From contig CAJAJL010000043.1 in NCBI GenBank assembly GCA_903940125.1, forward strand, positions 1 to 64,000: a DNA stretch of 64,000 nucleotides, given 5' to 3'. Each line of letters opens with the position of its first letter. The stretch's first letter is position 1. This document shows, one piece after another, positions 33,334 through 52,812 of this stretch. The stretch comes from an uncultured Chlorobiaceae bacterium (GTDB lineage: Bacteria; Bacteroidota; Chlorobiia; Chlorobiales; Chlorobiaceae). A program made the position numbers and the translations under genes. Below the pieces are notes generated by a model that was not told where the DNA came from, searched no databases, and worked only from the letters and a program-made list of their open reading frames with translations.

Positions 33334-33948
33334 ATGAACAGCAAAAGATACAGCATGGCTTTTACTACAGGCGGTCTTTTTCACCGGGATTCCGTGAAGT
33401 TGGCAGTGTTGTATCTGGATCTCAAGAACTGGAATAGTGTTCGAAATAAGGTTTTTTCCGAAAACCTTTTACAGTCAAGAACTCTCAATTCGTTAACACG
33501 TGTATCCCGTGAAATTATCTCAAGATTGAAAACGCTTGAAGCCGATGAGTTGGATTTACTGATTTCAGGTTCTACGCAGGAGCAGAAATATCTGCTGTGG
33601 CTCGCTGTTTGCCGTCGTTACCGCTTTATTGCTGATTTTGCGAAAGAGGTTATTCGAGAGCGGTATATCAGCCTGAAGTTCGACCTTCCATACGAAGAGT
33701 TTGATTGCTTTTTCAACAAAAAGTCAGAGTGGCATCCTGAGCTTGAAGAAATAAAGCCAACAACCAGAAATAAGCTGCGTCAGGTATTGTTCAAAATATT
33801 ACGGGAAGCAGAGCTTTTGGCAACAGATCGCTCTATCAAAGGATCAATGTTGAGTAAGCGGTTTCTTGATGCCATACCTCAGGAACGACGTCAAGATGTC
33901 TTTTTTTTTCCTGCTTTTGAATCCTGTAAAACCGGGGTCGCAGAATGA
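33334..33948 (+). CDS. brxA: BREX protein BrxA (DUF1819)
   Basis: BrxA is a small, helical DNA-binding protein and one of the six core genes of type 1 BREX, which blocks phage replication and marks host DNA by methylation. The 204-residue sequence matches family layout: YSMAFTTGGLFHRDSVKLAVLYLDLKNW at the N-terminus (DUF1819), FIADFAKEVIRERYISLKFDLPYEEFDCFFNKK in the middle, and LREAELLATDR near the C-terminus. It is the first gene of the locus. Its stop overlaps the brxB start (ATGA, 33945-33948). Identification also rests on the ordered neighbours brxB and brxC. Confidence 0.93.
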   Translation: MNSKRYSMAFTTGGLFHRDSVKLAVLYLDLKNWNSVRNKVFSENLLQSRTLNSLTRVSREIISRLKTLEADELDLLISGSTQEQKYLLWLAVCRRYRFIADFAKEVIRERYISLKFDLPYEEFDCFFNKKSEWHPELEEIKPTTRNKLRQVLFKILREAELLATDRSIKGSMLSKRFLDAIPQERRQDVFFFPAFESCKTGVAE

Positions 33949-34553
33949 GCGCAGAGATTAAAAAAAAGCCTGAAGAGCGTTTGCAACATTTATTCAGCGT
34001 GATTTCAGGGAGGCGTTTTTTAGAAAAAACAGCATTGAATGGCGAGATCCCATTTTATGTCTGCGCTTACCCTCCCGAGGAGTCAGTTGAAATGGAGCGG
34101 GTTCAACGTCAGCTTATCAATCGCCTTGAGCATAGTGGCGTGAGAGTTCTGGAAATCAACCTCTATGACCTTTCAATTGAAATCCTCAAACAGCGGGGGA
34201 TCTGGGAGCAAATACTCGAAATGGAAACCTCAGTATCCAAGGAGCAGCTTAAAGAGTTGCTTCAAGGGGTATTGGATCCTGAAGCGCATCTCGTCCCGGC
34301 GATTGCCGCCCAGCTTGCTGACAGCGAGTTTGATGTTCTTTTTCTTTCAGGGGTTGGAGCGGTCTTTCCTTACATCCGTTCGCATAATGTTTTGAACAAC
34401 TTGCAAAGCACGGCAAAAGAAAAACCAACAGTCATGTTTTTTCCCGGCACCTACGAGCATTGCCAGGAATCAGGTGCTTCACTTGATCTTTTCGGTATGT
34501 TGCATGACGACAAGTACTACAGGGCATTCGACATTTTTCATTGCGAAGCATAA
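33945..34553 (+). CDS. brxB: BREX protein BrxB (DUF1788)
   Basis: The 202-residue protein matches DUF1788: FYVCAYPPEE at the N-terminus, then AQLADSEFDVLFLSGVGAVFPYIRSHNVLNNLQ and PTVMFFPGTYE near the C-terminus. BrxB is essential in type 1 BREX, but its biochemical role is not established; it is thought to help bring BrxC and PglX/PglZ together. It overlaps brxA by four bases and lies just before brxC, the standard order. Confidence 0.93.
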   Translation: MSAEIKKKPEERLQHLFSVISGRRFLEKTALNGEIPFYVCAYPPEESVEMERVQRQLINRLEHSGVRVLEINLYDLSIEILKQRGIWEQILEMETSVSKEQLKELLQGVLDPEAHLVPAIAAQLADSEFDVLFLSGVGAVFPYIRSHNVLNNLQSTAKEKPTVMFFPGTYEHCQESGASLDLFGMLHDDKYYRAFDIFHCEA

Positions 34554-34567
34554 ACGAAAATAACGGC

Positions 34568-37500
34568 ATGATACTCAAGACTATTTTCAAAAAGCCGGTT
34601 GACCGCCCTATTGAAGGGGTCATCAAAGCTGATGATGAAGCCAGTCTTCGGCTTGAAATCGAAGAGTATGTTCTGACAAATGAGGTCGAAAAACGTCTGG
34701 AAGCATTTCTTGATGCCTACAACAACTATGAAGGAGCTAATGGAGTCTGGATCTCAGGTTTCTTTGGTTCAGGTAAATCACACCTGCTGAAAATACTTGC
34801 CATACTTCTTGAAGACCGGGAAATTGATGGTGTTCGTTCACTTGATCTGTTTCTGCCTAAATGTATCGATAACGAGATTCTTCGAGCAGATCTCAAGCGC
34901 GCTGTAAGCATACCCTCCAAGAGTATTCTTTTCAATATCGACCAGAAAGCTGACGTTATCAGCAAATCGCAGTTCGATGCTCTTCTCGCGGTATTTGTCA
35001 AGGTTTTTGACGAGATGTGCGGTTACTATGGAAAGCAGGGTCACATTGCCCAGTTTGAACGGGATCTTGATAGCCGGGGACTCTACAACAAGTTCACAGC
35101 AGCCTACCATTCTCAGGCTGGAAAAGAGTGGCAAAAAGGGCGTGAGCAGGCGCTGCTTGAATCACAGAATATCGCCAAGGCGTATGCTGAGGCTACTGGA
35201 GAAAGTGACTCTGTCGCAATTGGAATTCTTGATAAATACAGAAACCAGTACAGAGTCTCGATTGAGGATTTTGCCGACCAGGTCAATGCCTATATCAATA
35301 AGCAATCAAAAGAATTCCGTCTGAACTTCTTTGTTGATGAGGTAGGTCAGTATATCGCCGAAAATGTGAAGCTGATGACCAACCTTCAAACCATTGCTGA
35401 GAGTCTCGCCACCAAGAGTCGTGGCCGTGCATGGATTATTGTTACCTCCCAGAACGACATGAGTACAGTTCTCGGCGAAATGAACCGCCAGCAGAGCAAT
35501 GATTTCTCGAAAATTATGGGTCGCTTTGCCACTAAAATGCCGCTGACCAGCACCAATGTGGCAATTGTCATTCAGAAGAGGCTGTTAGCCAAGACGGAAG
35601 ATGGAGCGGAACTTGTGTCTGATCTCTATCACAGGGAGTCAAATAACTTCGGAACACTTTTTAGTTTCACCGATGGCTCCCGCGATTACAAGAACTTTAA
35701 GGACAGAGAGGAGTTCATTCAGAGCTATCCCTTTGTTCCCTATCAATTTGAACTGTTTCAGTCTGCAATAGAGAATCTCTCACGGCACAATGCCTTTGAA
35801 GGAAAACATAGCTCTGTCGGTGAGCGTTCAATGCTCGGTGTGTTCCAACAAGTGGCCATGCAGATCTGTGGTTATGAAATTGGTCAACTGGCATCATTTG
35901 ACCTGATGTTTGAAGGTATTCAAACGGCATTAAAGGCCCAGACACAGAAAGCGGTTCTTGCGGCAGAGCGGCAATTGGGTAATGATTTTGCCTTAAAAGT
36001 GCTTAAAGCTCTTTTTCTTGTCAAATACGTCAAGGAGTTCAAACCGTCTCACAGAAATCTCTGTGTTTTGATGCTCGATGCGTTCAACAAAGAGTTGCCC
36101 GAGTTGCGTAAGAAGGTTGAAGAGGCTCTGAATTACCTTGAACAGCAGATATACATCAAGCGCAATGGTGAGCTTTATGAATACCTCACCGATGAGGAAA
36201 AGGATATCGAAAAGGAGATCAAAAACACTGAGGTTGACGCAACCGAAGTCGCGGCTGAGCTGGAGAAAATTGTTTTCGATCTTGTCATCAAAACGAGGAA
36301 AATCCGCTTCGACAATAACGGTCAGGATTACCCCTATTCCCGAAAGCTTGATGACCGCCTGCACGGTCGTGAATACGAGCTTGCTATTCACGTCGTAACT
36401 CCGTTCCACGAAAATGCTGAAAATGAAACCATACTTCGCATGCAGAGTATGGGACGTGACGAGCTGCTGGTTCTCATGCCTCCTGACGATCGGCTCATGC
36501 GCGATATCATTTTATATAAACAGACTGAAAAATATATCCGCCAGAATAGCACGACCGCCCAGCAAGAGGCCGTTAACCACATACTTGCCAACAAAGGTGA
36601 TCAGAATCGGGATAGATACCGGGCATTACAGTTGCGAGTACAAACCCTTCTTGGCCGTGCAAAACTTTTTGTGGGTGGCAGTGAAATTGAAATAGGTGGC
36701 GAAGAGGCTCAGAGTAGAATCACTCAGGGGTTTCGTCAGCTTGTTATTCAGGCTTATCCTAATCTTCGCATGCTTCGCGGAATTACCTATACCGAAAACG
36801 ATATTGCGAGTTGTCTCAAGCAGACTCAAGAGGGATTGTTCAAAACTGATGTTGCTTCACTGGCGGAATCCGAGCAGGAGGTGCTGGCTTTCATCCAGAG
36901 CAATAACCGGAGTGGGGTTCGAACAACGCTGAAGCTGCTGCTGGAAAAATTTGAGCACAAACCAAATGGCTGGTACTATGCCGCTATCCTATGCACCCTT
37001 GCCAAATTGTGTGCCCGAGGAAAGGTAGAGGTTCGCTCCGACAGCAATACCCTTGAAGATGATGAACTCGAGCGTGCTTTGCGCAATACCCACGGCCATG
37101 GCAATGTGATTCTGGTGCCTCAAGCCGATTTTACCGCATCGCAGGTTCGCAGCCTTAAAGAATTTTATGAAGAGTTTTTCGACTCAACTCCACTCGCCAG
37201 TGAAGCAAGGGCTCTTGGAAAGGAAACAGGTGAAGCTTTACAGAAATCAAGAGATGAACTGGCCCCATTGGCCGCACAAGCACCACTCTATCCATTCCTT
37301 AATGCACTAAATCCTGTTCTTGAAAAGCTGAAGGCGGAGATTGGAAAACCATACACATGGTACCTTACTGACTTTTTGAAAGAGTCGGACGTTCTGCTTG
37401 GCCTCAAGGAAACGGTTATCGACCCGATACGCAAGTTTATGAGCGGGTCGCAAAAAAGCATTTTCGACAGCGCCCGTAAAATGGTTCAGGTTCAGCAGCC

Positions 37501-38107
37501 AAATTTCTCATATATCTTTGGAGATGAATCCGCGAAACTTAAAGATGCGTTGCTTGATCCGGAATGCTTCAAGGGTAATCGCATGCAGCAGATTAAAACC
37601 CTTGTAGCTACCATAGAGGAAAAAATAAATACGGAAATCGAAAGAGAAATTTCCCATGCCATAGATACATCAAGGCAACATCAGGAGCGCCTTTGCAGCA
37701 TGGCCGAATATTCTGCACTCTCCCCAAAACAGCAGGAAGAGATCATTCAGCCATTCAATGAATTCGCACAATCCGTGCGAGATCAAAAGCTTATTGCTGT
37801 TATTCACGACATGCAACGACGATTTGAAGAAACGGAGTACCAGGCGCTGTTATCCCAATTGACTATCCTGTCGCAGCCAAAACAGCAAGAGGCGACTCCA
37901 GCAAAGAGAGATGAAACGTCAAAGCAAGCGCCAACCTTATATCCTGCTGTAGCTGAACCAAAAGTAGAGTACGTTCCAGGTCGTTCAATCAAAATACCTT
38001 TCAATAAAGCGTGGCTGGCTGATGAGTCTGACGTAGAACGTTATCTGGAATCCATGCGTGAGGTCATGCTTGCCGAGATCCGAAATGGGAAAAGAATCCA
38101 AATATAG
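34568..38107 (+). CDS. brxC: BREX protein BrxC (PglY-like large ATPase)
   Basis: BrxC is the giant AAA+ ATPase of BREX. The 1,179-residue protein starts MILKTIFKKPVDRPIEGVIKADD, the family opening, which fixes the start at ATG 34568 rather than the upstream TTG. Walker A is GFFGSGKSHLL (from residue 64) and a Walker B-like FFVDEVGQYI lies near 260. The C-terminal half is long, helical and rich in Glu/Gln/Lys, with coiled-coil character. Length is usual (about 1,200). The gene is intact. An AlbA_2-type gene follows within 10 bases instead of pglX. Confidence 0.94.
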   Translation: MILKTIFKKPVDRPIEGVIKADDEASLRLEIEEYVLTNEVEKRLEAFLDAYNNYEGANGVWISGFFGSGKSHLLKILAILLEDREIDGVRSLDLFLPKCIDNEILRADLKRAVSIPSKSILFNIDQKADVISKSQFDALLAVFVKVFDEMCGYYGKQGHIAQFERDLDSRGLYNKFTAAYHSQAGKEWQKGREQALLESQNIAKAYAEATGESDSVAIGILDKYRNQYRVSIEDFADQVNAYINKQSKEFRLNFFVDEVGQYIAENVKLMTNLQTIAESLATKSRGRAWIIVTSQNDMSTVLGEMNRQQSNDFSKIMGRFATKMPLTSTNVAIVIQKRLLAKTEDGAELVSDLYHRESNNFGTLFSFTDGSRDYKNFKDREEFIQSYPFVPYQFELFQSAIENLSRHNAFEGKHSSVGERSMLGVFQQVAMQICGYEIGQLASFDLMFEGIQTALKAQTQKAVLAAERQLGNDFALKVLKALFLVKYVKEFKPSHRNLCVLMLDAFNKELPELRKKVEEALNYLEQQIYIKRNGELYEYLTDEEKDIEKEIKNTEVDATEVAAELEKIVFDLVIKTRKIRFDNNGQDYPYSRKLDDRLHGREYELAIHVVTPFHENAENETILRMQSMGRDELLVLMPPDDRLMRDIILYKQTEKYIRQNSTTAQQEAVNHILANKGDQNRDRYRALQLRVQTLLGRAKLFVGGSEIEIGGEEAQSRITQGFRQLVIQAYPNLRMLRGITYTENDIASCLKQTQEGLFKTDVASLAESEQEVLAFIQSNNRSGVRTTLKLLLEKFEHKPNGWYYAAILCTLAKLCARGKVEVRSDSNTLEDDELERALRNTHGHGNVILVPQADFTASQVRSLKEFYEEFFDSTPLASEARALGKETGEALQKSRDELAPLAAQAPLYPFLNALNPVLEKLKAEIGKPYTWYLTDFLKESDVLLGLKETVIDPIRKFMSGSQKSIFDSARKMVQVQQPNFSYIFGDESAKLKDALLDPECFKGNRMQQIKTLVATIEEKINTEIEREISHAIDTSRQHQERLCSMAEYSALSPKQQEEIIQPFNEFAQSVRDQKLIAVIHDMQRRFEETEYQALLSQLTILSQPKQQEATPAKRDETSKQAPTLYPAVAEPKVEYVPGRSIKIPFNKAWLADESDVERYLESMREVMLAEIRNGKRIQI

Positions 38108-38116
38108 GTATTGCCA

Positions 38117-39787
38117 ATGAGCGAGACAGATCAAGAACTTAGTAAGCTGATCAGCCAGGGGGAAACTCTGACAGTGGAATTCAAGAGCGATCTGAAAATT
38201 CTGCCGGATCGCGATTTGTTGGCTGCAGTGGTTTCACTGGCTAATACCGATGGCGGTTTACTGCTGCTCGGCGTTGAGGACGATGGACAGATCACTGGTT
38301 TACATGCAAATCATCTCAATGTTTCTGGGATTCCTTCTCTGGTTGCAAACAAGACAAATCCTGCGATCTCCATAAGAGTGGAGCGTTTTGAGTTGCATGG
38401 CAAATCAATAGCTCGGATCAGTGTGCCGAAGTCGAGGCAACTGGTCTCAACCTCTGAGGGTCTTCTGGTCCGTCGTCGTCTCAAGCTCGACGGAACACCG
38501 GAGGCTGTTCCTTTCTATCCTCATGAGTTTTTACAACGCCAGTCCTCTCTGGGATTGGTCGATCCCTCTGCCATGTTGATGGAACAGATTTCGGTTGAGC
38601 AATTGGACCCACTTCAACGTCTTCGTCTTCGAAATGCCATCAAAAAATACGGGGGCGAACAATCCCTGTTTTCGCTGGCGGACGAAGAGCTGGATGGTGC
38701 CCTGGGGTTGGTCATGGACCATCAAGGGAAAAAATGCCCCACGGTTGCAGGCGTGCTTATTTTGGGAAGTGAAACTCTATTGCGCCGATACTTGCCTGCT
38801 TATGAAGTTGCATTTCAGGTACTGCGAGGCACCGATGTTCGTGTTAACGAGTTTTACCGAAAGCCCCTGCTGGAGGCTTTTGAGGAGGTTGAATTGCAGT
38901 TCAAGCCGTGGATTGTTGAAGAGGAAATTCAGGTAGGATTGTTTCGTGTACCAGTTCCGAACTATGATCGCAGGGCCTTCCGTGAAGCCTTTGTGAATGC
39001 GTTGGTTCACCGTGATTTCAGTACACTTGGGGCGGTTCACATCAAACTCGACGATGATGGTTTGAGCATCAGCAGCCCTGGAGGATTTATCGAGGGCGTG
39101 AATCTCAATAATCTGCTCGTGGCGCCTCCGCGCTCGCGTAATCCGTTATTGGCCGACATTATCAAGCGGATCGGTCTTGCTGAACGAACCGGTCGAGGCA
39201 TTGACCGCATTTACGAAGGTATGTTACGCTATGGTCGCCCGGCACCAGATTATTTTCTCTCCAATGCCTACACCGTCAGTCTTTTTCTTTCAAATGCTTC
39301 CGCCGATCTCGATTTTCTCAAGATGGTCGTGGAACAGGAGGATAAGCTTGGAACCATGCCGATCGATTCATTGATCATCCTTTCTCGTCTTCGAGAAGAA
39401 CGTCGTTTGACAACGACTGATCTTGCTCCATCAGTGCAAAAGCCGGAAGCCAATGTGCGGGCTACACTGGAAAAACTGGTCGAAACCGGGTTTCTTGAGC
39501 CACACGGAACCGGTCGAGGTAGATCCTACATCCTGAGTGCACGGATGTACCAGAAGGCAGGCCAGCGTGCAGAATATATCCGTCAGGCAGGGTTTGATTC
39601 CATCCAGCAGGAGCAGATGGTGCTCAATTATATTGGCAAGCATGGCAGTATAAAAAGGGCCGAAGCAGTCGAACTCTGTTGTCTTAGCCCGGATCAAGCG
39701 TATAAGCTGTTGTTAAGACTAAAACAACGTGGTGAAATCGAACAAATAGGGGAAAGAAAGGGGGCTTTCTATGAGCGAAAGCGTTAA
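38117..39787 (+). CDS. AlbA_2 (Schlafen-like) DNA-binding protein with GHKL ATPase and winged-helix domains
   Basis: The 556-residue protein has three parts: AlbA_2/Schlafen-type domain (LTVEFKSDLKILPDRDLLAAVVSLANTDGG, GVEDDGQITGL), a GHKL ATPase domain of the HATPase_c_4 type (FREAFVNALVHRDFS as N-box, GRGIDRI as a later Gly motif), and winged helices near the C-terminus (LRATLEKLVETGFLE-like region, then YIGKHGSIKRAEAVELCCLSPDQAYKLLLRL). Such proteins are often annotated as regulators. Lying between brxC and pglX, immediately before the repeat-rich pglX leader (39788-39840), it could regulate pglX or be an added defence effector. Start ATG 38117; TTG 38111 is the alternative. Confidence 0.85.
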   Translation: MSETDQELSKLISQGETLTVEFKSDLKILPDRDLLAAVVSLANTDGGLLLLGVEDDGQITGLHANHLNVSGIPSLVANKTNPAISIRVERFELHGKSIARISVPKSRQLVSTSEGLLVRRRLKLDGTPEAVPFYPHEFLQRQSSLGLVDPSAMLMEQISVEQLDPLQRLRLRNAIKKYGGEQSLFSLADEELDGALGLVMDHQGKKCPTVAGVLILGSETLLRRYLPAYEVAFQVLRGTDVRVNEFYRKPLLEAFEEVELQFKPWIVEEEIQVGLFRVPVPNYDRRAFREAFVNALVHRDFSTLGAVHIKLDDDGLSISSPGGFIEGVNLNNLLVAPPRSRNPLLADIIKRIGLAERTGRGIDRIYEGMLRYGRPAPDYFLSNAYTVSLFLSNASADLDFLKMVVEQEDKLGTMPIDSLIILSRLREERRLTTTDLAPSVQKPEANVRATLEKLVETGFLEPHGTGRGRSYILSARMYQKAGQRAEYIRQAGFDSIQQEQMVLNYIGKHGSIKRAEAVELCCLSPDQAYKLLLRLKQRGEIEQIGERKGAFYERKR

Positions 39788-39882: not shown

Positions 39883-41676
39883 ATGGAAACAGCTAAACTC
39901 AAAAAGTTTGCTCAGTTTGCCCGTCGTAGTCTGATTGAGCAAATATCGGCAAAGCTGAATCTTGTGCTGGCCGAGAGCAGTGCCGCTCGGCGTGAAGAGG
40001 CAAAAGCGATAGCTGAGCTTGAAAAGCAGATTCAGGGTCATGGCAGAGAACAGGTGATCGAGCGGATAGCATACATCTGGTTCAACCGCTTCTGTGCCCT
40101 GCGCTTTATGGATGTCAACCGTTACACTCGTATCGGTATCATAACGCCTGCCGAAGGACAGTTTCAGCCTGAAATTTTGGCTGAAGCTAAAATGGGGCAT
40201 ATCGATGAAGAAATGGTGGCGGAGAAAACCCGTGAACAGATATTCGCTTTACTCGGTGGATCATCTCCAAGCCGTGATCCACAGTCCGAGGCTTACTGTT
40301 TATTAGTGGTTGCCGCCTGCAACGACTTCAACAAGTCGATGCCATACCTGTTTGAAAAAATTGCTGATTATACCGAGTTGTTGATGCCCGATGACCTTCT
40401 TTCGGGCAATTCTATTCTTGCCTATACTCGCGAGGCAATGACGCCTGACGTCTGCCAGGATGTCGAGGTTATTGGCTGGCTCTACCAGTTCTATATATCC
40501 GAGAAAAAGGACAAGGTATTTGATGATTTAAAGAAGAACAAGAAGATTACTCCGGAGAACATACCCGCAGCCACCCAGCTTTTCACGCCGCACTGGATTG
40601 TCCGCTACCTGGTAGAGAACTCACTGGGTCGTCTCTGGATGCTCAACCGCCCAAATTCGAAGCTGGTTGAGCAGATGGAGTACTACATCAAACCCGAGCA
40701 GGTAGAGAGTGACTTTTTGCATATCGGCAAGCCGGAGGATATCAAAATGTGTGACCCTGCCTGTGGTTCGGGCCATATTCTTACCTACACCTTTGATCTG
40801 CTTTACGCCATCTATGAAGAAGAAGGGTACGACCCGTTTGAAATACCGGAAAAGATACTGATGCATAACCTCTACGGTATTGAGATTGATGAACGGGCTG
40901 GAGAGTTGGCGGCATTTGCTTTGACCATGAAGGCCCGTGCAAGGCAGCGTCGGTTTTTCAATAAAGGTGTCAAGCCGAATATCTGCGTGCTCGAAAATAT
41001 CCACTTCAATGAGAGCGAGCTAAAAGACTACATGGATTTCATCGGGCGTGATCTGTTCACCGCACCACTGCAGACTACCCTCAAGCAGTTTGAAGAGGCC
41101 GACAATTTTGGCTCCCTGATTCGACCAGCCGTCAATGATGTTTCGGGTATGCTGAATATTCTGGAGTCTAAAAATGTCTCAGGACAACTGTTCCTGAGCC
41201 CAACCCATCAGAAGGTTTTGCAAGCCCTGCAGCAGGCCGATTACCTCAGTCCTAAATACCATGTAGTTGTTGCCAACCCGCCGTATATGGGTGGAAAGGG
41301 AATGAATCCCAGCCTTGCCGCATGGGTAAAAGAGAACTACCCTGAGAGTAAATCCGATCTTTTTGCCATGTTTATTGAGCGCAATCTCGATTTGACGCAA
41401 AAGCATGGAGCTGTAGGGATGATAACCATGCAGAGCTGGATGTTTCTCTCAAGCTTTGAGAAACTTCGGGCGAAACTGCTCGACAATGCGACTATTCTCT
41501 CGATGGCTCATTTGGGTGCCCGTGCCTTTGACAGTATTGGAGGTGAAGTGGTTTCGACGACGGCGTTTGTTCTGGACAACGGATATATTCCCGACTTTAA
41601 AGGCGCGTTTGTCCGCCTTGTTGATGGTAAAAGTGAAGCTGAAAAAGATCGTATGTTGAAGGAGGCTATTCAATGA
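39883..41676 (+). CDS. pglX: BREX methyltransferase PglX, N-terminal (catalytic) polypeptide
   Basis: PglX is the N6-adenine methyltransferase of BREX. This 597-residue polypeptide covers the N-terminal helical region and the entire catalytic domain: SAM-binding DPACGSGHILTYTFDLLY (from residue 291) and the catalytic NPPY (465-468) in VVVANPPYMGGKGMNPSL. It stops after GKSEAEKDRMLKEAIQ, whereas a complete PglX (about 1,200 residues) continues directly into the specificity region, encoded here about 1.15 kb further on. The stop codon overlaps the next start as ATGA (41673-41676). Start ATG 39883 is preferred over TTG 39880. The enzyme may be rebuilt from two chains, like HsdM and HsdS. Confidence 0.92.
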   Translation: METAKLKKFAQFARRSLIEQISAKLNLVLAESSAARREEAKAIAELEKQIQGHGREQVIERIAYIWFNRFCALRFMDVNRYTRIGIITPAEGQFQPEILAEAKMGHIDEEMVAEKTREQIFALLGGSSPSRDPQSEAYCLLVVAACNDFNKSMPYLFEKIADYTELLMPDDLLSGNSILAYTREAMTPDVCQDVEVIGWLYQFYISEKKDKVFDDLKKNKKITPENIPAATQLFTPHWIVRYLVENSLGRLWMLNRPNSKLVEQMEYYIKPEQVESDFLHIGKPEDIKMCDPACGSGHILTYTFDLLYAIYEEEGYDPFEIPEKILMHNLYGIEIDERAGELAAFALTMKARARQRRFFNKGVKPNICVLENIHFNESELKDYMDFIGRDLFTAPLQTTLKQFEEADNFGSLIRPAVNDVSGMLNILESKNVSGQLFLSPTHQKVLQALQQADYLSPKYHVVVANPPYMGGKGMNPSLAAWVKENYPESKSDLFAMFIERNLDLTQKHGAVGMITMQSWMFLSSFEKLRAKLLDNATILSMAHLGARAFDSIGGEVVSTTAFVLDNGYIPDFKGAFVRLVDGKSEAEKDRMLKEAIQ

Positions 41677-42755
41677 GCACCTTTTTGAATAACCTCCTTA
41701 CTCAACCCGAATTTGATGCCTTACCCATGCCTGACCTTGCTATGGAAGCGCTTGACCTGCCTGCCATTCGGTCTGACTTTGCTGATAGAACCCCGGATGA
41801 ACGGATGCTGCAAAGCCTCAAGATTTTGGTACGCGATCAGGAACGACTGGTTCCCAGCAAGGGTGGTATCCTGCTTTACGGTCATGATCGGCGCTTCTAT
41901 TTTGATGATGCATGGATTCAGTGTGGCCGTTTTATCGGCAACGATAAGGGCGACATCTTCGACCATATCGATATTCACGACCCGCTGCCCAAGGCGGTGG
42001 AGAGCATCATGCTGTTTCTCAAGAAACACGCCATGCGGGGTGCCGATTTTTCCGAGATTCGGCGCAAGGATCGCTGGAGTATTCCAATCAACATTCTACG
42101 TGAAGTTGTTATTAATGCGCTGGTTCATGCCGATTACTCCCAGCGTGGCACCCCAATTCGCATCGCTTTTTACGATAACCGTATTGAGGTTGAGAGCCCG
42201 GGGTTGCTGCTGCCGGGCCTCACTGTTGAGGAGATGAAACAAGGTATTTCGCAAATCCGCAATCCGGTCATCGCTCGGGTGTTCCGTGAGCTGGATCTGA
42301 TTGAACAGTGGGGGAGCGGCATCCCCGGTATTTTCAGGGAAGCCAGAGCCAGCAATTTGCCTGAGCCGACCATAGAAGAGCTGGCAGGACGAGTACGTTT
42401 CACTGTGCCCCTATCGGAAATTTTGCCACTCTCCCGCGAACAGTCGCGGAAATCCGAATCGACCCAGTTGGCTCAAGTCAGTGAGCAAGTCAGTGAGCAA
42501 GTCAGTGAGCAGATGTTGTGTATGTTGCGATCCTGTCTGGCAGAATCACAAAGCAGGTTTGACTTGCTCATTGCCGCAGGTTTGAGCGATGCGTACATGA
42601 ACTACAGGCGTCATCTGTTACCGTTGGTTGTGCAGGGACTGATCGAACGAACCATCCCGGATAAGCCAAACAGCCGGTTGCAGAAGTATCGGTTGAGCGG
42701 AAAAGGCAGGGCTTTGTTAACTTCGGCAGGCAAGGATAAGGGGAGCCAAGCATGA
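41673..42755 (+). CDS. GHKL (HATPase_c_4) ATP-binding protein inserted within pglX
   Basis: The 360-residue protein has a GHKL ATPase domain with LREVVINALVHADYSQRGTPIRI (N-box and following strand), VESPGLLLPG, and QWGSGIPGIFREA (Gly-rich lid), as in the 38117 gene. It lacks the usual AlbA_2 domain at the N-terminus, although ILLYGHDRRFYFDDA remains of the linker region. The C-terminus has a QVSE tetrapeptide three times and a winged-helix-like end. It splits pglX: it starts on the stop codon of the catalytic half, with GGAGG well placed, and is followed after 70 bases by the specificity half. It may be a regulator, or a helper protein for the split enzyme. Confidence 0.85.
   Translation: MSTFLNNLLTQPEFDALPMPDLAMEALDLPAIRSDFADRTPDERMLQSLKILVRDQERLVPSKGGILLYGHDRRFYFDDAWIQCGRFIGNDKGDIFDHIDIHDPLPKAVESIMLFLKKHAMRGADFSEIRRKDRWSIPINILREVVINALVHADYSQRGTPIRIAFYDNRIEVESPGLLLPGLTVEEMKQGISQIRNPVIARVFRELDLIEQWGSGIPGIFREARASNLPEPTIEELAGRVRFTVPLSEILPLSREQSRKSESTQLAQVSEQVSEQVSEQMLCMLRSCLAESQSRFDLLIAAGLSDAYMNYRRHLLPLVVQGLIERTIPDKPNSRLQKYRLSGKGRALLTSAGKDKGSQA
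42474..42509 (+). repeat. 12-bp in-frame tandem repeat (three copies)
   Basis: CAAGTCAGTGAG occurs three times head to tail (42474-42485, 42486-42497, 42498-42509), encoding QVSE repeats in the ATPase gene inserted in pglX. Copy-number change would alter linker length without changing the frame. Confidence 0.9.
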
Positions 42756-42823
42756 AGGTAAATGAATGCAAATATGAAAAGATTGCCGATAAGACTTGCT
42801 TAAAGCAGAGCCCAAGGGAATAA
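42752..42823 (+). CDS. Possible 23-residue micro-ORF between the inserted gene and pglX-C
   Basis: ATG at 42752 overlaps the preceding stop as ATGA and has GGGGAG about 8 bases upstream. The frame gives MKVNECKYEKIADKTCLKQ and a few more residues, ending 3 bases before the ATG of the specificity half of pglX. It may be a translational bridge between the two genes or the leftover start of a lost gene. No homologue recognised. Confidence 0.3.
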   Translation: MKVNECKYEKIADKTCLKQSPRE

Positions 42824-42825
42824 TC

Positions 42826-44595
42826 ATGAATAACGAAGAACAAATACTTTCTGATAAAAAGGCCGAACACTTTTTCTTTCGAGCCTCTACCGCCGATTTT
42901 AAGAAAATCCCAGGTAGTCCGATTGCGTATTGGGTAAGCGATCGCCTAAGAAATTCCTTTATAGAAAGTAGTTCATTGAAAGATATTGCTCAACCTCGCA
43001 AAGGAATAACGACTGCTGATAATGAGAAGTATATGAGAAATTGGTTTGAAGTAGAATTAGGAAAAGCGGCTTTGAAAGATGGCGTTGATGGTATCAAATG
43101 GCACCCTGTGAATAAAGGTGGAAATTTTCGGAAATGGAATGGCAATAAAGAAATTGTTATTAACTGGAAAAACGATGGTGAAGAAATAAAAAAATTCGAT
43201 AACTCCGTAATTCGCAATCCATCCTTTTATTTTAAAGAAGGTATGACTTGGAATGATATTTCATCTGGAAAATTTGCAATGAGATATTCAGACGGACGGG
43301 CAATGTTTGAGGGAAAAGGGCCAATGGCTTTTGCAGAGAATAGTGATAAGCTAATAAACTTAATTTCATTTTTTAATTCAATAGTTTCGGCATCAATTTT
43401 GTCGTTCCTATGTCCAACGCTTAATTTTAACATCGGCGACATTGCTAAAACTCCAATATCTTCTAACATATTAGAATGTAAAACAATAAAAGAAAACGGT
43501 AAAGTTTGCATAATTCTAAGCAAAGAAGACTGGGACTCATACGAAACTTCTTGGGAATTCACCAGCTTACCACTTTTGCAATCTGATTTTCGTCGGCCAA
43601 CGCTGAAAGCCACCTATCATGACCTCCGGGCCAACTGGCAGAAGATGACGATACAGATGTTGCGACTCGAAGAGGAAAACAACCGCATTTTCATCGAAGC
43701 CTACGGTTTGCTGGATGAATTGACGCCCGAAGTGCCGCTGAATGAAATTACTCTGACCTGCAACCCGCATTATCGATACAGCAATAGCAAAAACGCGGTA
43801 GAGCTTGAATTGCTGCTGCTGGCTGACACCATGAAGGAGTTTATCTCCTATGCTGTTGGGTGCATGTTTGGCCGTTACTCGCTCGATAAACCCGGATTGA
43901 TCCTTGCCAATCAAGGCGAAACTATCGAGGACTATTGGAAAAATGTCAGGGCCGACCAAAAACTGCCAACTGCCAACTGCCCACTGTCTACTGATTCCGT
44001 CTTCCTCCCCGACGCTGACAACGTCATCCCCATCCTCGATGGAGACTGGTTCACTGACGATGTCTCCGAGCGGTTCCGCAAGTTCTTGCGCATCACCTTT
44101 GGCGATGAGCATTATGAGGAAAACCTGAAGTTTATTGAGGTTGCGCTTGGCAAGGATATCCGTAAGTATTTCCTGAAGGATTTTTACAGCGATCATGTGC
44201 GTCGATATAAGAAGCGCCCTATTTACTGGCTTTTCAGCAGTCCCAAGGGCAGTTTCAACGCGCTGATCTACATGCACCGTTACCGTTCGGATACGGTGAG
44301 TGTGGTGCTCAACTACCTCCGCGAGTTTCGCATAAAGCTGACCACAGAGAAGAACCATCTCGAAGCGGTAAGTATCAGCGCCAGCGCATCTCCGGGGGAG
44401 AAAACCAAGGCATTGAAAGAGATCGAGAGTCTCAGGAAAATGATCGAAGAGCTCGACAGTTACGAACGAGAAATCCTTTACCCGCTTGCCACTGAACAGC
44501 TTGAAATAGACCTCGACGATGGTGTAAAAGTGAATTACCAGAAATTCGGCCCGGCTCTCAGGAAGATTCCCGGCCTTGATACAAAAGAGGAGTGA
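42826..44595 (+). CDS. pglX: BREX methyltransferase PglX, C-terminal (specificity) polypeptide
   Basis: This 589-residue polypeptide resumes PglX: FRASTADFKKIPGSPIAYWVS is the segment that follows the catalytic domain in full-length PglX. A target-recognition-like region follows (about residues 45-245) and then the conserved C-terminal part RPTLKATYHDLRANWQKM, LEEENNRIF, VGCMFGRYS and LDGDWFTDDVSERFRKFL. DNA encoding the recognition region (about 42900-43560) is strongly AT-rich, while the part after 43570 returns to normal composition. A new N-terminal stretch (MNNEEQILSDKKAEH) replaces the usual linker. Start ATG 42826 has AAGGGA upstream; TTG 42796 is an alternative. A 7-bp tandem repeat lies inside at 43961-43981. 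Confidence 0.9.
   Translation: MNNEEQILSDKKAEHFFFRASTADFKKIPGSPIAYWVSDRLRNSFIESSSLKDIAQPRKGITTADNEKYMRNWFEVELGKAALKDGVDGIKWHPVNKGGNFRKWNGNKEIVINWKNDGEEIKKFDNSVIRNPSFYFKEGMTWNDISSGKFAMRYSDGRAMFEGKGPMAFAENSDKLINLISFFNSIVSASILSFLCPTLNFNIGDIAKTPISSNILECKTIKENGKVCIILSKEDWDSYETSWEFTSLPLLQSDFRRPTLKATYHDLRANWQKMTIQMLRLEEENNRIFIEAYGLLDELTPEVPLNEITLTCNPHYRYSNSKNAVELELLLLADTMKEFISYAVGCMFGRYSLDKPGLILANQGETIEDYWKNVRADQKLPTANCPLSTDSVFLPDADNVIPILDGDWFTDDVSERFRKFLRITFGDEHYEENLKFIEVALGKDIRKYFLKDFYSDHVRRYKKRPIYWLFSSPKGSFNALIYMHRYRSDTVSVVLNYLREFRIKLTTEKNHLEAVSISASASPGEKTKALKEIESLRKMIEELDSYEREILYPLATEQLEIDLDDGVKVNYQKFGPALRKIPGLDTKEE
43961..43981 (+). repeat. Heptanucleotide tandem repeat inside pglX-C
   Basis: AACTGCC is repeated three times exactly (43961-43967, 43968-43974, 43975-43981), followed by a degenerate CACTGTC. 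It encodes KLPTANCPLST in a linker between two conserved blocks. Because 7 is not a multiple of 3, gain or loss of one unit would shift the reading frame and truncate the protein. Confidence 0.85.
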
Positions 44596-44602
44596 ACAAT
44601 GG
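44527..44602 (+). repeat. 76-bp repeat, copy 1 (true 3' end of pglX plus following start codon)
   Basis: This copy is the functional end of pglX-C, from the codons for KVNYQKFGPALRKIPGLD to the stop, the ribosome binding site GAGGAG and the ATGG of the Septu-like ATPase gene. It matches 46504-46579 at about 70 of 76 positions. Confidence 0.9.
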
Positions 44603-45876
44603 AAATAAGAACATTGCGGATAACGAATTATCGGGGGGTGACCTCTCTGAAACTCGATTTACATAAACGACTGAACGTCTTTTATGGCGTGAATGGTTCT
44701 GGAAAATCGACAATGCTTGATGCTGTTGCAGTTATGCTTTCGTGGGTTGTAAGTCGGCTTCGATTTGCTCGTTCATCTGGTCGTCCAATTATAGAACCGG
44801 AAATTTCTAATGGCAAATCATTTTCCACTATTGAAATTGAGTGTAAGAAGGGAGATTTGCCGATCAGATGGACCTTAACAAAAAATCGGAAAGGCCATTT
44901 TGCAAATGATGATCGCAGTGATTTTGCTAATCTGAATGAGTTTATAAAAATTTTACTGTTAGATATCCTTCATAAAGGACAGAAAGTCAATCTCCCTTTA
45001 TTTTCGTACTACCCAGTCAATCGCGCTGTGCTCGATATTCCGCTTCGCATAAGGGAAAAACACAGTTTTAATATTTTTACTGCTTATGATAACGCGTTGA
45101 CAGGTGGGACAAATTTTAGGACATTTTTTGAGTGGTTTCGTGAGCGTGAAGACCTTGAGAATGAGAATCGCAGATATATTGATTACCTGTTAAAACCGGA
45201 AGGATTTCAGTTTCCTGATTCGCAGCTTGAAGCTGTTCGTAAAGCATTGTTGTCTTTTTTGCCGGATTTCAAGAATTTGACTGTTCGGCGGAATCCTCTT
45301 CGCATGGAAGTTGAAAAAAATGGTAAACGTTTGACGGTCAACCAGCTTTCAGATGGTGAGAAGTGTTTGATTGCCATGATAGGCGATCTTGCACGACGAA
45401 TGTCAATTGCTAACCCTGCGCGAGAAAATCCGCTGGAGGGCGAGGGTATTATCCTAATTGATGAAATTGACCTGCACCTTCATCCAAAGTGGCAAAGGAT
45501 GATTATACCAAAGCTTCTTGAGGTGTTTCCGAATGCTCAGTTTATCATCTCTACTCATTCTCCGCATGTTATTACTCAAGTGCAGCCGGAGAGTCTGTTC
45601 CTTCTCAAGCAAACCGATTCAGGCATAGTTGCTGAACAACCCATTGAGTCTTATGGAAAGAGTGTAGAGAGGATTCTCGAGGACTTGATGGGACTTGAGA
45701 CGACCCGACCAGATGAAGTCAGTGTAAAACTTCATGATATTTATTCTTCCATTGATCAAAACCACATAGAAGAAGCTCGTCGGTCAATTGCCGTAATGAA
45801 AGAGGAAATTGGCGAAGATCCTGAACTGATGAAAGCTGAAATTCTCATCAGGCGTAAGGAGATTATCGGTAAATGA
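44599..45876 (+). CDS. Septu PtuA-like AAA/ABC-type ATPase
   Basis: The 425-residue protein has Walker A GVNGSGKST (30-38), the ABC-like signature NQLSDGEKCL, Walker B GIILIDEIDLHLHPKW and a D-loop/H-loop region FIISTHSPHVI, the layout of OLD/SMC-like ATPases used in Septu (PtuA) and retron-associated defence. The next gene overlaps it by ATGA (45873-45876) and encodes an HNH protein of the PtuB/TIGR02646 type, so the pair is Septu-like. No reverse transcriptase is present. Its ribosome binding site is part of the pglX 3' end. Expected role: senses infection and controls the nuclease partner. Confidence 0.87.
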   Translation: MEIRTLRITNYRGVTSLKLDLHKRLNVFYGVNGSGKSTMLDAVAVMLSWVVSRLRFARSSGRPIIEPEISNGKSFSTIEIECKKGDLPIRWTLTKNRKGHFANDDRSDFANLNEFIKILLLDILHKGQKVNLPLFSYYPVNRAVLDIPLRIREKHSFNIFTAYDNALTGGTNFRTFFEWFREREDLENENRRYIDYLLKPEGFQFPDSQLEAVRKALLSFLPDFKNLTVRRNPLRMEVEKNGKRLTVNQLSDGEKCLIAMIGDLARRMSIANPARENPLEGEGIILIDEIDLHLHPKWQRMIIPKLLEVFPNAQFIISTHSPHVITQVQPESLFLLKQTDSGIVAEQPIESYGKSVERILEDLMGLETTRPDEVSVKLHDIYSSIDQNHIEEARRSIAVMKEEIGEDPELMKAEILIRRKEIIGK

Positions 45877-46496
45877 AGTACATCGTCAAACAGAATGAAC
45901 CAGAGGATTTTACCAAGTGGAAAGCTCTCAAGAATGAAGAGTGGACGCCCACTTATGACAAGCTGAGTGGAGTTGTTAAAATCGCTGTTAGACAGGCACT
46001 GATGACTGAACAAGGTTATATTTGTTGTTATTGTGAACGCAGGTTAACTGACAATGACTCTCATATCGAGCATTTCAGACCTCAGGAGAATAAATCAACA
46101 GACCCGCTGGATTTTAAGAACATGCTTTGTTCTTGTCAGCAGAGATTGAAAAAAGGAGATCCACGCCATTGTGGCAATCGTAAAGATGACTGGTTTGATG
46201 AGCAACTGTTGGTATCTCCATTTGATTCAGGAAGTGAGAAGAGGTTTACTTTTACCGGAGACGGATACATCAGTTCTGCTCAATCGGCTGATAGAGCTGC
46301 AACCGAAACAGTATTAAGGCTTGGTCTTGATATTCCAAAACTCAGAAGCTTGAGAAAGAGTGCGATTGAACCCTTTTTGGATGAATCTTTGAGTCAGGAT
46401 GAAGCGACTCGTTTTGTTTCGGGATATCTTCAACTGGATAGTCGCGGTATGTACGGAGAGTTCTGGACAACTATCCGCTATCTTTTTGGAGACTGA
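45873..46496 (+). CDS. Septu PtuB-like HNH nuclease (TIGR02646-type)
   Basis: The 207-residue protein has the HNH motif CCYCERRL (51-58) and HIEHFRPQ (64-71), then CSCQQRLKKGDPRHCGNRK, which fits the retron/Septu HNH family. The family acts as the nuclease partner of a PtuA-type ATPase and probably cuts DNA or RNA on infection. It overlaps the ATPase gene by four bases. Right after its stop, at 46504-46579, comes a second copy of the pglX 3' end, which marks the right border of the inserted cassette. Confidence 0.87.
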   Translation: MKYIVKQNEPEDFTKWKALKNEEWTPTYDKLSGVVKIAVRQALMTEQGYICCYCERRLTDNDSHIEHFRPQENKSTDPLDFKNMLCSCQQRLKKGDPRHCGNRKDDWFDEQLLVSPFDSGSEKRFTFTGDGYISSAQSADRAATETVLRLGLDIPKLRSLRKSAIEPFLDESLSQDEATRFVSGYLQLDSRGMYGEFWTTIRYLFGD

Positions 46497-46503
46497 CTCG
46501 TTG

Positions 46504-46579
46504 AAAGTGAACTATCAAAAATTCGGCCCGGCTCTCAGGAAGATTCCCGGCCTGGATGCAAAAGAGGAGTGAACCATGG
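46504..46579 (+). repeat. 76-bp repeat, copy 2 (orphan pglX 3' end)
   Basis: This duplicate of the pglX tail (KVNYQKFGPALRKIPGLDAKEE-like reading, shown here only by position) is non-functional as pglX but still supplies GAGGAG and the start codon to the DUF262-DUF1524 gene. It differs from copy 1 at about six positions; most coding differences are silent (AAT/AAC, TAC/TAT, CAG/CAA, CTT/CTG), with one Thr/Ala change. That pattern implies that the copies diverged as separate functional pglX genes before being brought together. Confidence 0.9.
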
Positions 46580-48309
46580 CAATAATGAATTTCAATACGA
46601 CCAATTCTACTTTCCGTCAGTTGCTCGGTAACGGCTTGAGCTACCATGTCCCTCCTTTTCAACGAGATTATTCTTGGACGGAAGACGAATGGGATGATTT
46701 TTGGCAAGATATCCATGGCTTGTTCGAAGAGGACGGTGAATTGGCTCACTACATGGGCTATCTGGTATTGCAGTCTTCCGATAACAAGCGGTTTGATATC
46801 ATTGATGGTCAACAGCGGCTTACGACAATAAGTATTATGATTCTTTCCGGCTTGCAGCATCTCCAGGAGCTGGCTGCTGCCGGATTTGATGCCGACAATA
46901 ACATCAAGCGTAAAGAACAGCTTCAGAGCGGTTACATCGGCTATCTTGACCCTGTAAGTCTGGTATCGCGCTCAAAATTGGAGTTGAATCGCCATAATAA
47001 CCGTTTTTATCAGACCTATCTGGTGACGCTTGAAGCACTGCCGCAAAGAGGACTGAACTCATCAGAGCATCAACTTCGAAAATCTTTCAACTGGTTTAAG
47101 GAGCGCATTAAAACCCGCTTTGGGATGAACGACGCAAGCGGAAAGGAGCTGACCGTTTTTCTTGATGGGTTGGTTGATAAACTGTTTTTCACGGTTATTA
47201 CGGTGACTGACGAATTGAATGCATTTAAAGTATTTGAGACTCTTAATGCGAGAGGTGTTCGTCTTTCAGCAACTGACCTGCTGAAAAATTATCTCTTTTC
47301 GATTATCAGTACGCATGACACGCATGAGACCGAATTGAAGGCTCTGGAGGATCGCTGGGAGCGGATTACAGGTTTGTTGGGGAGTGAAAGTTTTCCTGAA
47401 TTTCTCAGGATATTTTGGAACAGCCGTAACAAGCTGGTAAGGAAGTCGGACCTTTTCAAGACCATCCGAAAACGAATCAGTGACCGTGAAGCTGCATTTG
47501 ATTTGCTTCGAGATCTCGATCAATCAGCAGCCATTTATGCGGCTCTCCGTGATCCTCAGGATGCTGCGTGGAACAGTGAAGAAAAACTTTGCCTTAAACA
47601 GTTGCTGATGTTCAATGTCCGGCAGCCACTGGCTATGCTGATGGCCTGCCATGCAAGGTTCTATGAGCATGACAGAGCTGCCTTTACTCGCTTGATGAAA
47701 GCAGTGGCGGTCGTGTCATTTCGCTATAACGTCATTTGTAACTTTCAGGCACATGAGCAGGAACGATTGTATAATGACATCGCTTTAAAAGTATCAGGAG
47801 GCACTTATTCACGCTTTACGGAGATTATCAGTGCATTGCGGGAGGTTTATCCCGACGACGTGCAGTTTAAAGCGGCATTCAGTGAGAAGGAACTTTGTAC
47901 CACAAATAGTCGCAACAAAAAAGTGGTGCGGTATATCCTTTTTGAAATTGAGCGCCAGCAATCTGGTCAGGATTTCGATTTTGAAAGTGCTACGTACAAT
48001 ATCGAGCACATCCTCCCGGAACATCCATCTGAAATTTGGTCTTACATAGAGGAAGCCAAACAGGATCATCTGATTTATCGTCTTGGCAATATTACACCTC
48101 TTGAAACCAATAGAAACCGAGCGTTGGGTAATGGAGATTACGCATCCAAGCGGCCTGTTTATCAAGATAGCGCCTTTCAGATAACCAATGCGGTTGCGGT
48201 GCACTATGACAGTTGGGATGAACAGAAAATCGAAGCTCGGCAAAAGCAGTTGGCGACTGTTGCATCAGGAATATGGAAAATTGATTCGGCTTATTTTCAA
48301 GATCACTGA
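46576..48309 (+). CDS. DUF262-DUF1524 endonuclease (GmrSD/BrxU-like)
   Basis: The 577-residue protein has an N-terminal DUF262 domain: PPFQRDYSWTEDEWDDFW, then FDIIDGQQRLTT (DGQQR at 77-81), and a C-terminal DUF1524 domain with the His-Asn-His-like motif NIEHILPEHP (His478) and RLGNITPLETNRN. This fused S-D layout matches GmrSD type IV enzymes that cut modified phage DNA. BrxU, a GmrSD-type enzyme encoded within a BREX locus, is a known partner that complements BREX against phages with modified DNA. The start ATG lies in the duplicated pglX tail. Confidence 0.9.
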   Translation: MAIMNFNTTNSTFRQLLGNGLSYHVPPFQRDYSWTEDEWDDFWQDIHGLFEEDGELAHYMGYLVLQSSDNKRFDIIDGQQRLTTISIMILSGLQHLQELAAAGFDADNNIKRKEQLQSGYIGYLDPVSLVSRSKLELNRHNNRFYQTYLVTLEALPQRGLNSSEHQLRKSFNWFKERIKTRFGMNDASGKELTVFLDGLVDKLFFTVITVTDELNAFKVFETLNARGVRLSATDLLKNYLFSIISTHDTHETELKALEDRWERITGLLGSESFPEFLRIFWNSRNKLVRKSDLFKTIRKRISDREAAFDLLRDLDQSAAIYAALRDPQDAAWNSEEKLCLKQLLMFNVRQPLAMLMACHARFYEHDRAAFTRLMKAVAVVSFRYNVICNFQAHEQERLYNDIALKVSGGTYSRFTEIISALREVYPDDVQFKAAFSEKELCTTNSRNKKVVRYILFEIERQQSGQDFDFESATYNIEHILPEHPSEIWSYIEEAKQDHLIYRLGNITPLETNRNRALGNGDYASKRPVYQDSAFQITNAVAVHYDSWDEQKIEARQKQLATVASGIWKIDSAYFQDH

Positions 48310-48474
48310 TGTTGTGACGACTTTGATGTTTGGTGAATTTTACAAAACGAACCCATTTGTGACGTTTCTGTAATACACAAAGATCTAATTTGCGAGGCAA
48401 AGGTGCATTTTTGCTGATTACTTAAAGAAATTTTGCTGACGATGGAACAAAGAACGAACAACAACGGAACTCGT

Positions 48475-49587
48475 ATGAAGCTGAAGTTAATTGACCTGAA
48501 AGGGTTCAAGGCTATTGATGGTCACTCTGGACAAAAAATTCCGTTGGGGGATGTCACTATACTGCTTGGGGCGAATGGTTCCGGGAAAAGCAATGTCGTG
48601 TCATTTTTCAAAATGCTGAACTCCCTTACTACCGGTGTACTGCAGAATTATGTGGGGAAGCAAGGTGTGAGTCAGCTTTTGTTCTATGGATCAAAAGTTA
48701 CCGATTCTATTTTTTTTACACTTCACTTTTCGTCGGATGATATTACCGACACATATGAAGTCAAACTGACGTATGGTTTACCGGATCGTTTGTTTATTAG
48801 CGGTGAAAAGGTGACATGCCAGAAAAATGGAAAAGAAAAACCTCAAGAGAACTATCTGGAAAGTGGTGGAGCTGAGTCTGGATTAGGCAAGGATGAAAGC
48901 AATACAAGCAAGGTTGTTTACAATCTTCTCTCCGGGATTCGTGCCTTTCATTTCCATGATACATCAGATACGGCACCCATTAAAGATCGTCGTTATGTTG
49001 ACGATGCGAAATATCTTCGTCATGATGCAGGAAACCTGGCTGCTTTTCTGAAAATGCTCAAAGAGCTTGACGAATACAAGCGCTACTACGATCGGATTGT
49101 TCGGCATATTCAGCGTGTAATGCCACAGTTTGGTGATTTTTCTTTGGATACCTTGCCTGGAAATGAGAAATATGTTCGCCTCAATTGGGTGGACACCTAT
49201 GGAAGCGAATACCTTTTTGGGCCGGATCAAATTTCGGATGGGTCACTCCGTTTCATGGCTTTGACAACGTTATTATTGCAGCCCCCGGAACTGTTGCCGA
49301 AGTTCATTGTTCTTGATGAGCCGGAGCTTGGTTTACATCCTGCCGCGATAGCTGAGTTGGCTGGGATGATTCATACGGTAGCACAAAAAACCCAGATTCT
49401 TGTGGCTACGCAATCTACCCGTTTTGTGGATGAGTTCAGCCCTGATGATCTGGTTATTGTTGATCGTGACGAGACGAATCGTTGTTCGGTTTTCAAAAAG
49501 TTGGATGCCGAGCAGCTTCATGATTGGTTGAAAAGCTATAGTCTTTCAGAGTTATGGGAGAAAAATGTGCTGGGAGGTCAGCCATGA
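48475..49587 (+). CDS. AAA ATPase (AAA_21/OLD-like), partner of DUF4276 protein
   Basis: The 370-residue protein begins MKLKLIDLKGFKAI and has Walker A GANGSGKS (32-39) and FIVLDEPELGLHP as signature/Walker B, then ILVATQSTRFVDEF. This is the OLD/RecF-like ATPase layout. Its stop overlaps the start of the DUF4276 gene (ATGA, 49584-49587). ATPase plus a small nuclease-like partner is the logic of PARIS (AriA/AriB), Septu and similar abortive systems. Starts at 48442 or 48433 would add 11-14 residues; ATG 48475 fits the family's N-terminus best. The 165 bases before it hold no gene. Confidence 0.85.
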   Translation: MKLKLIDLKGFKAIDGHSGQKIPLGDVTILLGANGSGKSNVVSFFKMLNSLTTGVLQNYVGKQGVSQLLFYGSKVTDSIFFTLHFSSDDITDTYEVKLTYGLPDRLFISGEKVTCQKNGKEKPQENYLESGGAESGLGKDESNTSKVVYNLLSGIRAFHFHDTSDTAPIKDRRYVDDAKYLRHDAGNLAAFLKMLKELDEYKRYYDRIVRHIQRVMPQFGDFSLDTLPGNEKYVRLNWVDTYGSEYLFGPDQISDGSLRFMALTTLLLQPPELLPKFIVLDEPELGLHPAAIAELAGMIHTVAQKTQILVATQSTRFVDEFSPDDLVIVDRDETNRCSVFKKLDAEQLHDWLKSYSLSELWEKNVLGGQP

Positions 49588-50264
49588 TTCGCCTGCATGT
49601 AATTGCTGAAGGCCAGACTGAGCAGGCTTTTGTAAAAAAGGTGTTAGCTCCGCACTTTGCGCAGTCGGGTATTTTTGCCGATGCTCGTTGTGTGTTGACG
49701 AGTAAAGATAAACGAGCAGCAAAAGAATATCGGGGTGGATTGCTGCACTATCAGAAAGCAAAAAACGATATTCTGACCTGGCTGAAAGAAGACTTCAATG
49801 CAGAGTGTCGTTTTACCACCATGTTTGATCTCTATGCTTTACCATCTGACTTTCCTGATTATCAGGAAGCTTTGAGGCAGACCGATCCCTACAAGCGATG
49901 TGAAATACTGGAGGATGCTTTATACAAGGATATCGGAGACCACCGATTCATTCCCTACATTCAGCTCCATGAGTTTGAAGCCCTTATACTTGCTGACCCG
50001 AAGAAGTTAGACTGGGAATACATGGAGCATCATGTTCCTATCAAGAATCTGTTACAAATGGTTGACGAGCAGAATCCTGAATTGATCAATGATGGGCGGG
50101 AGACTGCTCCGTCAAAACGGATTATCAAAGAAATCCCTGAATATGATAAAGTAAGTTCAGGTGTATTGGTGACAGAGAAAATCGGGCTTCCTGTTTTGCG
50201 GAGTAAATGCCGACATTTTCATGAATGGCTGATTCGAATTGAGACGCTTGGAGAAATAACGTGA
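49584..50264 (+). CDS. DUF4276 protein, partner of the AAA ATPase
   Basis: The 226-residue protein starts MIRLHVIAEGQTEQAFVKK, where IAEGQTE is the conserved acidic opening of DUF4276, and continues with MFDLYALPSDFP and IQLHEFEALILADP. The acidic pattern E...D-x-D/HEFEAL is reminiscent of TOPRIM-like nucleases, but a fold assignment is inference. GGGAGG precedes the start. It overlaps the ATPase gene by ATGA and pglZ by GTGA (50261-50264), so it is translationally coupled on both sides and firmly built into the BREX operon. Proposed role: effector nuclease controlled by the ATPase. Confidence 0.85.
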   Translation: MIRLHVIAEGQTEQAFVKKVLAPHFAQSGIFADARCVLTSKDKRAAKEYRGGLLHYQKAKNDILTWLKEDFNAECRFTTMFDLYALPSDFPDYQEALRQTDPYKRCEILEDALYKDIGDHRFIPYIQLHEFEALILADPKKLDWEYMEHHVPIKNLLQMVDEQNPELINDGRETAPSKRIIKEIPEYDKVSSGVLVTEKIGLPVLRSKCRHFHEWLIRIETLGEIT

Positions 50265-52795: not shown

Positions 52796-52812
52796 ACAGC
52801 CAATTGCGGACT

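Follow-up and report, generated by a model that had tools for sequence, protein, structure and literature searches.

The locus described here raises the question of whether a pglX gene that is present as two open reading frames, with another gene in between, is a broken gene or encodes a methyltransferase made as two polypeptides. It resides in a 64,000-nucleotide stretch of a contig from an uncultured Chlorobiaceae bacterium (CAJAJL010000043.1), hereafter the window, in which all features are given on the plus strand. We consider it probable that the PglX of the type I BREX locus in the window is a two-polypeptide enzyme, which would be made in this way because defence genes were inserted at the hinge codons of pglX, and that pglX tolerates this slot since the lobes can assemble all the same.

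The BREX locus

The gene order of the locus is brxA, brxB, brxC, Schlafen-HATPase, pglX, ptuAB, GmrSD-type nuclease, HEC-01 pair, pglZ and brxL. The products BrxA (33334..33948; Pfam, PADLOC), BrxB (33945..34553; PADLOC), BrxC (1188 aa, 34541..38107; PADLOC, NCBIfam), PglZ (844 aa, 50261..52795; NCBIfam) and BrxL (686 aa, 52804..54864; NCBIfam) are all full length, as is PglX, which is present as two genes. Upstream of pglX lies a full-length Schlafen(AlbA_2)-HATPase gene (556 aa, 38117..39787; Pfam PF04326 and PF13749), separate from the gene within pglX. A Septu cassette encoding PtuA and PtuB (44599..46496; PADLOC) immediately follows the 3' end of pglX, and further downstream are located a GmrSD-type nuclease gene (46576..48309; PADLOC HEC-06/Orf5) and the candidate defence pair HEC-01A/B (48433..50264). 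Among the window genes scanned, from 31015 to 60221, the families are those of BREX and other defence systems, and no HsdR was found. Promoter and terminator scans gave no signal exceeding that of shuffled sequences. The same genome (G000, contig C107, locus L114) harbors another BREX locus, whose PglX is fused (1238 aa) and belongs to a distant subfamily, with the end of BrxC located 5' of pglX and a YhcG gene 3' of it; thus, the split locus does not encode the only BREX methyltransferase of this genome.

The two halves of PglX and the position of the cut

The upstream pglX gene (39883..41676; ATG at 39883, TGA at 41674-41676) is predicted to supply the N-terminal helical domain and the methyltransferase domain in a product of 597 aa that ends in EAEKDRMLKEAIQ (LKEAIQ) and matches positions 1-590 of the 607 of PADLOC model PDLC02525. 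The downstream gene (42826..44595), starting at its own ATG at 42826 with the N-terminus MNNEEQILSDKKAEHFFFRASTADFKKIPGSP, would supply the target recognition domain (TRD), the spacer helices and the C-terminal domain (CTD) in 589 aa (PDLC02516, 22-591 of 593). Its leader MNNEEQILSDKKAEH stands in place of the linker of fused proteins, in which residues such as HQAIQ-NPNCGWLYYASSDDF span the joint. Both genes are intact, in agreement with the initial annotation, which had described separate methyltransferase and recognition genes around an ATPase gene. It had also credited the C half with its own start and ribosome binding site; the start codon is there, while the site, AAGGGA, located in a short spacer (42756..42825), is of moderate quality only.

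The NCBIfam profile BREX_1_MTaseX (NF033452, 1210 positions) is covered without a gap, from 1 to 645 by the N half (777 bits) and from 642 to 1209 by the C half (686 bits). Each half separately exceeds the cut-off of this profile, 500 bits, so that annotation may list such loci merely as two pglX genes. Similarly, in an alignment with Salmonella PglX (PDB 8c45) the N half corresponds to residues 68-636 and the C half to residues 639-1215, indicating that no residues are missing at the junction. The proposal that the two lengths combine to a full PglX, for which an alignment with the full-length protein had been named as a check, thus holds. The methyltransferase motifs DPACGSG and NPPY are both found, and the two halves jointly account for these motifs, the TRD, the spacer, the CTD and the full profile; what is not found in the window is a single polypeptide of ~1200 aa. 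Domains, motifs and their order are the same as in the type I PglX/BrxX proteins of Salmonella (8c45) and E. coli HS (9ewz). The enzyme of the window differs from them in that its chain is divided at the hinge and its two genes enclose further defence genes. In an alignment with 12 relatives four C-half residues (D396, D398, D412 and Y497) are invariant, and by our reading of the alignments they are putative counterparts of the BrxX metal site (PMC11842806). An AlphaFold model of the C half, built with 12 homologues, had a mean pLDDT of 45, which is too low for use.

The cut falls at BrxX residues 636-639. In E. coli BrxX the hinge loops that join the methyltransferase and target recognition domains comprise residues 638-675 (PMC11842806). 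The break therefore lies where it had been placed initially, between catalytic and recognition regions, at the hinge between the lobes of the solved PglX/BrxX structures. In two further genomes (G048 and G645; L049, L087) the N region of pglX is broken at residue 272-275, possibly a second insertion point; as this is a different place from the hinge, both were left out of the count of splits. Two other candidates were rejected: the presumed N half on Acinetobacter plasmid pA0137 is a disrupted gene with a transposase-like ORF behind it, and the short pglX of G654 is a fused gene running off its contig.

Relation to known systems

As in type I restriction-modification systems with HsdM and HsdS, the methyltransferase and recognition parts reside on separate polypeptides, and the CTD of PglX structurally resembles HsdS (PMC11341690). 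Unlike HsdM and HsdS, the halves derive from a split PglX, as which both score (PADLOC, NCBIfam), and their partners would be BrxC and PglZ instead of HsdR. PglX itself has been described as a methyltransferase with a built-in recognition domain, unlike HsdM/HsdS (EcoSal review PMC12707154). Judged from sequence, the split is best understood as an enzyme made of two polypeptides. Most likely, the halves would associate non-covalently and, together with BrxB, BrxC and PglZ, form a functional complex, as HsdM does with HsdS, and this complex would then place m6A in an asymmetric 6-bp site, as expected of BREX-1 PglX, and defend. Counting against separate halves, attempts to express the CTD of Salmonella PglX on its own failed (PMC11341690).

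Half-length PglX models exist in PADLOC (PDLC02525, 607 aa; PDLC02516, 593 aa), indicating that split sequences are already in the databases. In Ca. Regnicoccus frigidus (PMC9716671), two pieces likewise sum to a full-length pglX; they were reported as an interruption, and the passages considered mention neither a slot for cargo nor a hinge location nor selection. Accessory defence genes are also embedded between the genes of other BREX loci, but the cargo in the window interrupts a BREX gene itself, where two domains meet. No description of a hinge slot was found in the literature on split pglX, the scope of which did not extend to the founding BREX paper of 2015 (EMBO J), and the word 'split' was not found in the 2026 BREX survey (PMC12839542). 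If selection does maintain such a hinge split in nature, the lobes of PglX need not be joined in one chain in order to act. Split PglX might then serve as a tool for asking why PglX alone fails to methylate in vitro and for combining different recognition halves, and the content between two pglX annotations, as an intragenic defence hotspot, could reveal new defence modules.

Exchange of target recognition domains

It had further been suggested that the arrangement allows specificity subunits to be exchanged. Recognition does change among the relatives: in most pairs TRDs are only 34-45% identical next to CTDs of 79-95% identity, the window and G071 share N halves of 95% identity with TRDs of 34%, and the GC content is 35% in the TRD versus 50% in the CTD. 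This pattern might be taken to mean that the split exists for an HsdS-like exchange of subunits, a reading that we regard as unlikely. The unit that is swapped is the TRD and not the entire C half, and fused genes take part as well, as the fused gene of G085 has the TRD of the split genes of G064 (98% identity) and G056 (94%). Since TRD alleles are common to split and fused genes, the split is not what permits the exchange; recognition domains are shuffled in both alike. Thus, the swapping part of the suggestion stands, and the role of the split as its enabler does not.

Conservation and distribution of the split

Among 98 genomes of the class, nine of the genus have an N half as an open frame of ~573-642 aa, and three have a fused frame of 1177-1241 aa. 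The C half is present in all nine split genomes, being open at 590-664 aa in eight and ended by the contig in one, and no half has an internal stop; decay in related strains had been named at the outset as one of the observations that would refute a stable enzyme. Most relatives are metagenome bins, and in three split genomes of the Chlorobium group (G067, G079, G037) the halves are on separate contigs. Between split members dN/dS ranges from 0.03 to 0.25 for the N half and from 0.12 to 0.31 for the C half, with many dS values saturated; for the closest pairs it is 0.046 (N half, G071) and 0.118 (C half, G066).

Outside Chlorobium, PglX is fused in 12 of 12 Bacteroidota genomes (among 394 genomes of the phylum) and in at least 255 of 265 plasmid records, where a single place covers most of the fused query. 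In Pseudomonadota, where numbers are small, three of the ten genomes with a match are split (G907, G870 and G1025), and a fourth split (G1164) comes from the order of G1025. The split of G1025 resides on a 3.55-Mb contig and is therefore not an assembly break; for G907, whose contig ends within the slot, nothing beyond the N half and a portion of the slot gene was recovered. The search of other BREX loci that had been proposed at the outset thus recovered the identical cut in nine genomes of the genus and in four Pseudomonadota. In a tree of N halves, the splits occupy at least four separate places and fused members are nested within the Chlorobium group; these positions may stem from separate splitting events or from transfer accompanied by recombination.

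These data bear on the possibility that an insertion broke pglX, that this BREX has lost its activity or is in decay and that the second, fused BREX does the work. Such a second locus does exist in the genome, and the cyanobacterial pair of truncated pglX genes was interpreted as an interruption (PMC9716671). Nevertheless, we hold this reading to be quite unlikely: the halves are intact with low dN/dS across nine genomes, the identical cut recurs in four Pseudomonadota, BrxA, BrxB, BrxC, PglZ and BrxL of the window are full length, and the slot genes identified include no transposase or integrase. The sequence data thus argue strongly against a broken gene, and the split is a conserved arrangement and not decay, as the initial annotation had proposed.

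The gene between the halves and its replacements

The middle gene (41673..42755; 360 aa) encodes HATPase_c_4 (Pfam PF13749) and a Fic-like wHTH (PF21247). Its ATG at 41673 overlaps the stop codon of the N half via a shared ATGA, and AAGGAGG is located close 5' of it within the final N-half codons, as expected from the original description of a gene starting on the stop codon with a good ribosome binding site. Given the single gene direction and the overlapping or close stops and starts, both halves and the middle gene are probably translated together. Alignment with the copies of G066, G056 and G870 identifies the gene as an N-terminally shortened Schlafen-HATPase-wHTH gene that has lost ~131 residues in frame after MSTFLNNLLTQPE, and with them the Schlafen domain. 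All three domains (SLFN_AlbA_2, HATPase_c_4 and wHTH) are present in the slot genes of G066 and G870. Schlafen-HK-wHTH genes are common BREX auxiliaries in the 2026 survey (PMC12839542); the slot gene shares the architecture of this auxiliary, and the copy in the window differs from it by the absence of SLFN_AlbA_2 and by its location inside pglX. Compared with the G056 copy (dN 0.069, dS 0.560) the remaining part is under selection, so that the gene may have kept a function, perhaps a regulatory one. Between its HATPase and wHTH regions, at 42480-42515, is a VSEQ repeat that varies in copy number among relatives, with up to approximately nine VGEQ/VSEQ units in G056.

The cargo between the halves changes from one genome to another, that of the window being a Schlafen-HATPase-wHTH gene minus its nuclease domain. 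In the genus, the slot contains Schlafen-HATPase-wHTH in G066 and G037, the same with a KilA-N gene in G056 and probably in G079 (read from two contigs), KilA-N alone in G074, a remnant with SIR2 and HerA in G071, YhcG with a UG5 RT-nitrilase in G064, and YhcG with SIR2 and HerA in G067 (two contigs). In Pseudomonadota it contains Schlafen-HATPase-wHTH with an AAA ATPase and an AriB-like protein (a PARIS-like pair) in G870 and a UG5 RT-nitrilase in G1025 and G1164, which is 48-52% identical to that of G064. All slot genes identified are oriented as pglX, overlaps with neighbours being frequent. A UG5 RT-nitrilase thus occurs in the pglX hinge of both the Chlorobium group and Pseudomonadota (L043, L085, L101); a link between UG5-nitrilase and BREX was not found in the literature. 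The spacer sequence CCCAAGGGAATAATC / CCCAAGGGAATAATCATGA 5' of the C half in the window matches the 3' end of the G064 RT-nitrilase gene, which weakly suggests an earlier RT occupant of this slot.

Because slot content varies between genomes, the middle gene, judged by these comparisons, is replaceable cargo and not a likely subunit. That the HATPase protein is a third subunit bridging or regulating the halves seems very improbable, despite the start-stop overlap with the N half, the recurrence of the gene family in the slots of the Chlorobium group and two Pseudomonadota, and the selection seen against the G056 copy. No full copy is present in the slots of G064, G067, G071, G074, G1025 and G1164, in Desulfogranum (L015) the gene comes after a fused pglX, and similar Schlafen-HK-wHTH genes are auxiliary RNase effectors of BREX loci in at least 1017 taxa (PMC12839542). 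The earlier idea that the middle ATPase is part of the complex is therefore not upheld, the slot of G074 having a KilA-N gene only. It is hardly credible that one half alone works, such as the N half in the role of a subunit lacking sequence recognition, while the other is a passenger, as both halves occur in 9 of 9 split genomes of the Chlorobium group and are open in 3 of 4 split Pseudomonadota, with purifying selection on both, and the one genome with a single half (G907) has a contig that ends in the slot.

Returning to a PglX made as two polypeptides, we think it fairly likely that the hinge codons are a recurrent docking site used across phyla, that the two-subunit methyltransferase works and that unrelated defence modules are swapped through the slot.

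Origin of the slot

The slot likely originated by homology-based insertion. The Septu cassette sits between the 3' end of pglX (44527-44595) and a 69-bp copy of that end (46504..46572; 93% identity, direct repeat); a repeat of this kind was not found at the hinge slot. Partial copies of the 5' end of pglX (42-77 codons) upstream of the full gene in L040, L041, L044, L045 and L050 suggest that the region between brxC and pglX has received insertions accompanied by partial duplication. The tail of pglX is also repeated 3' of ptuB in L042, L008, L013 and L113.
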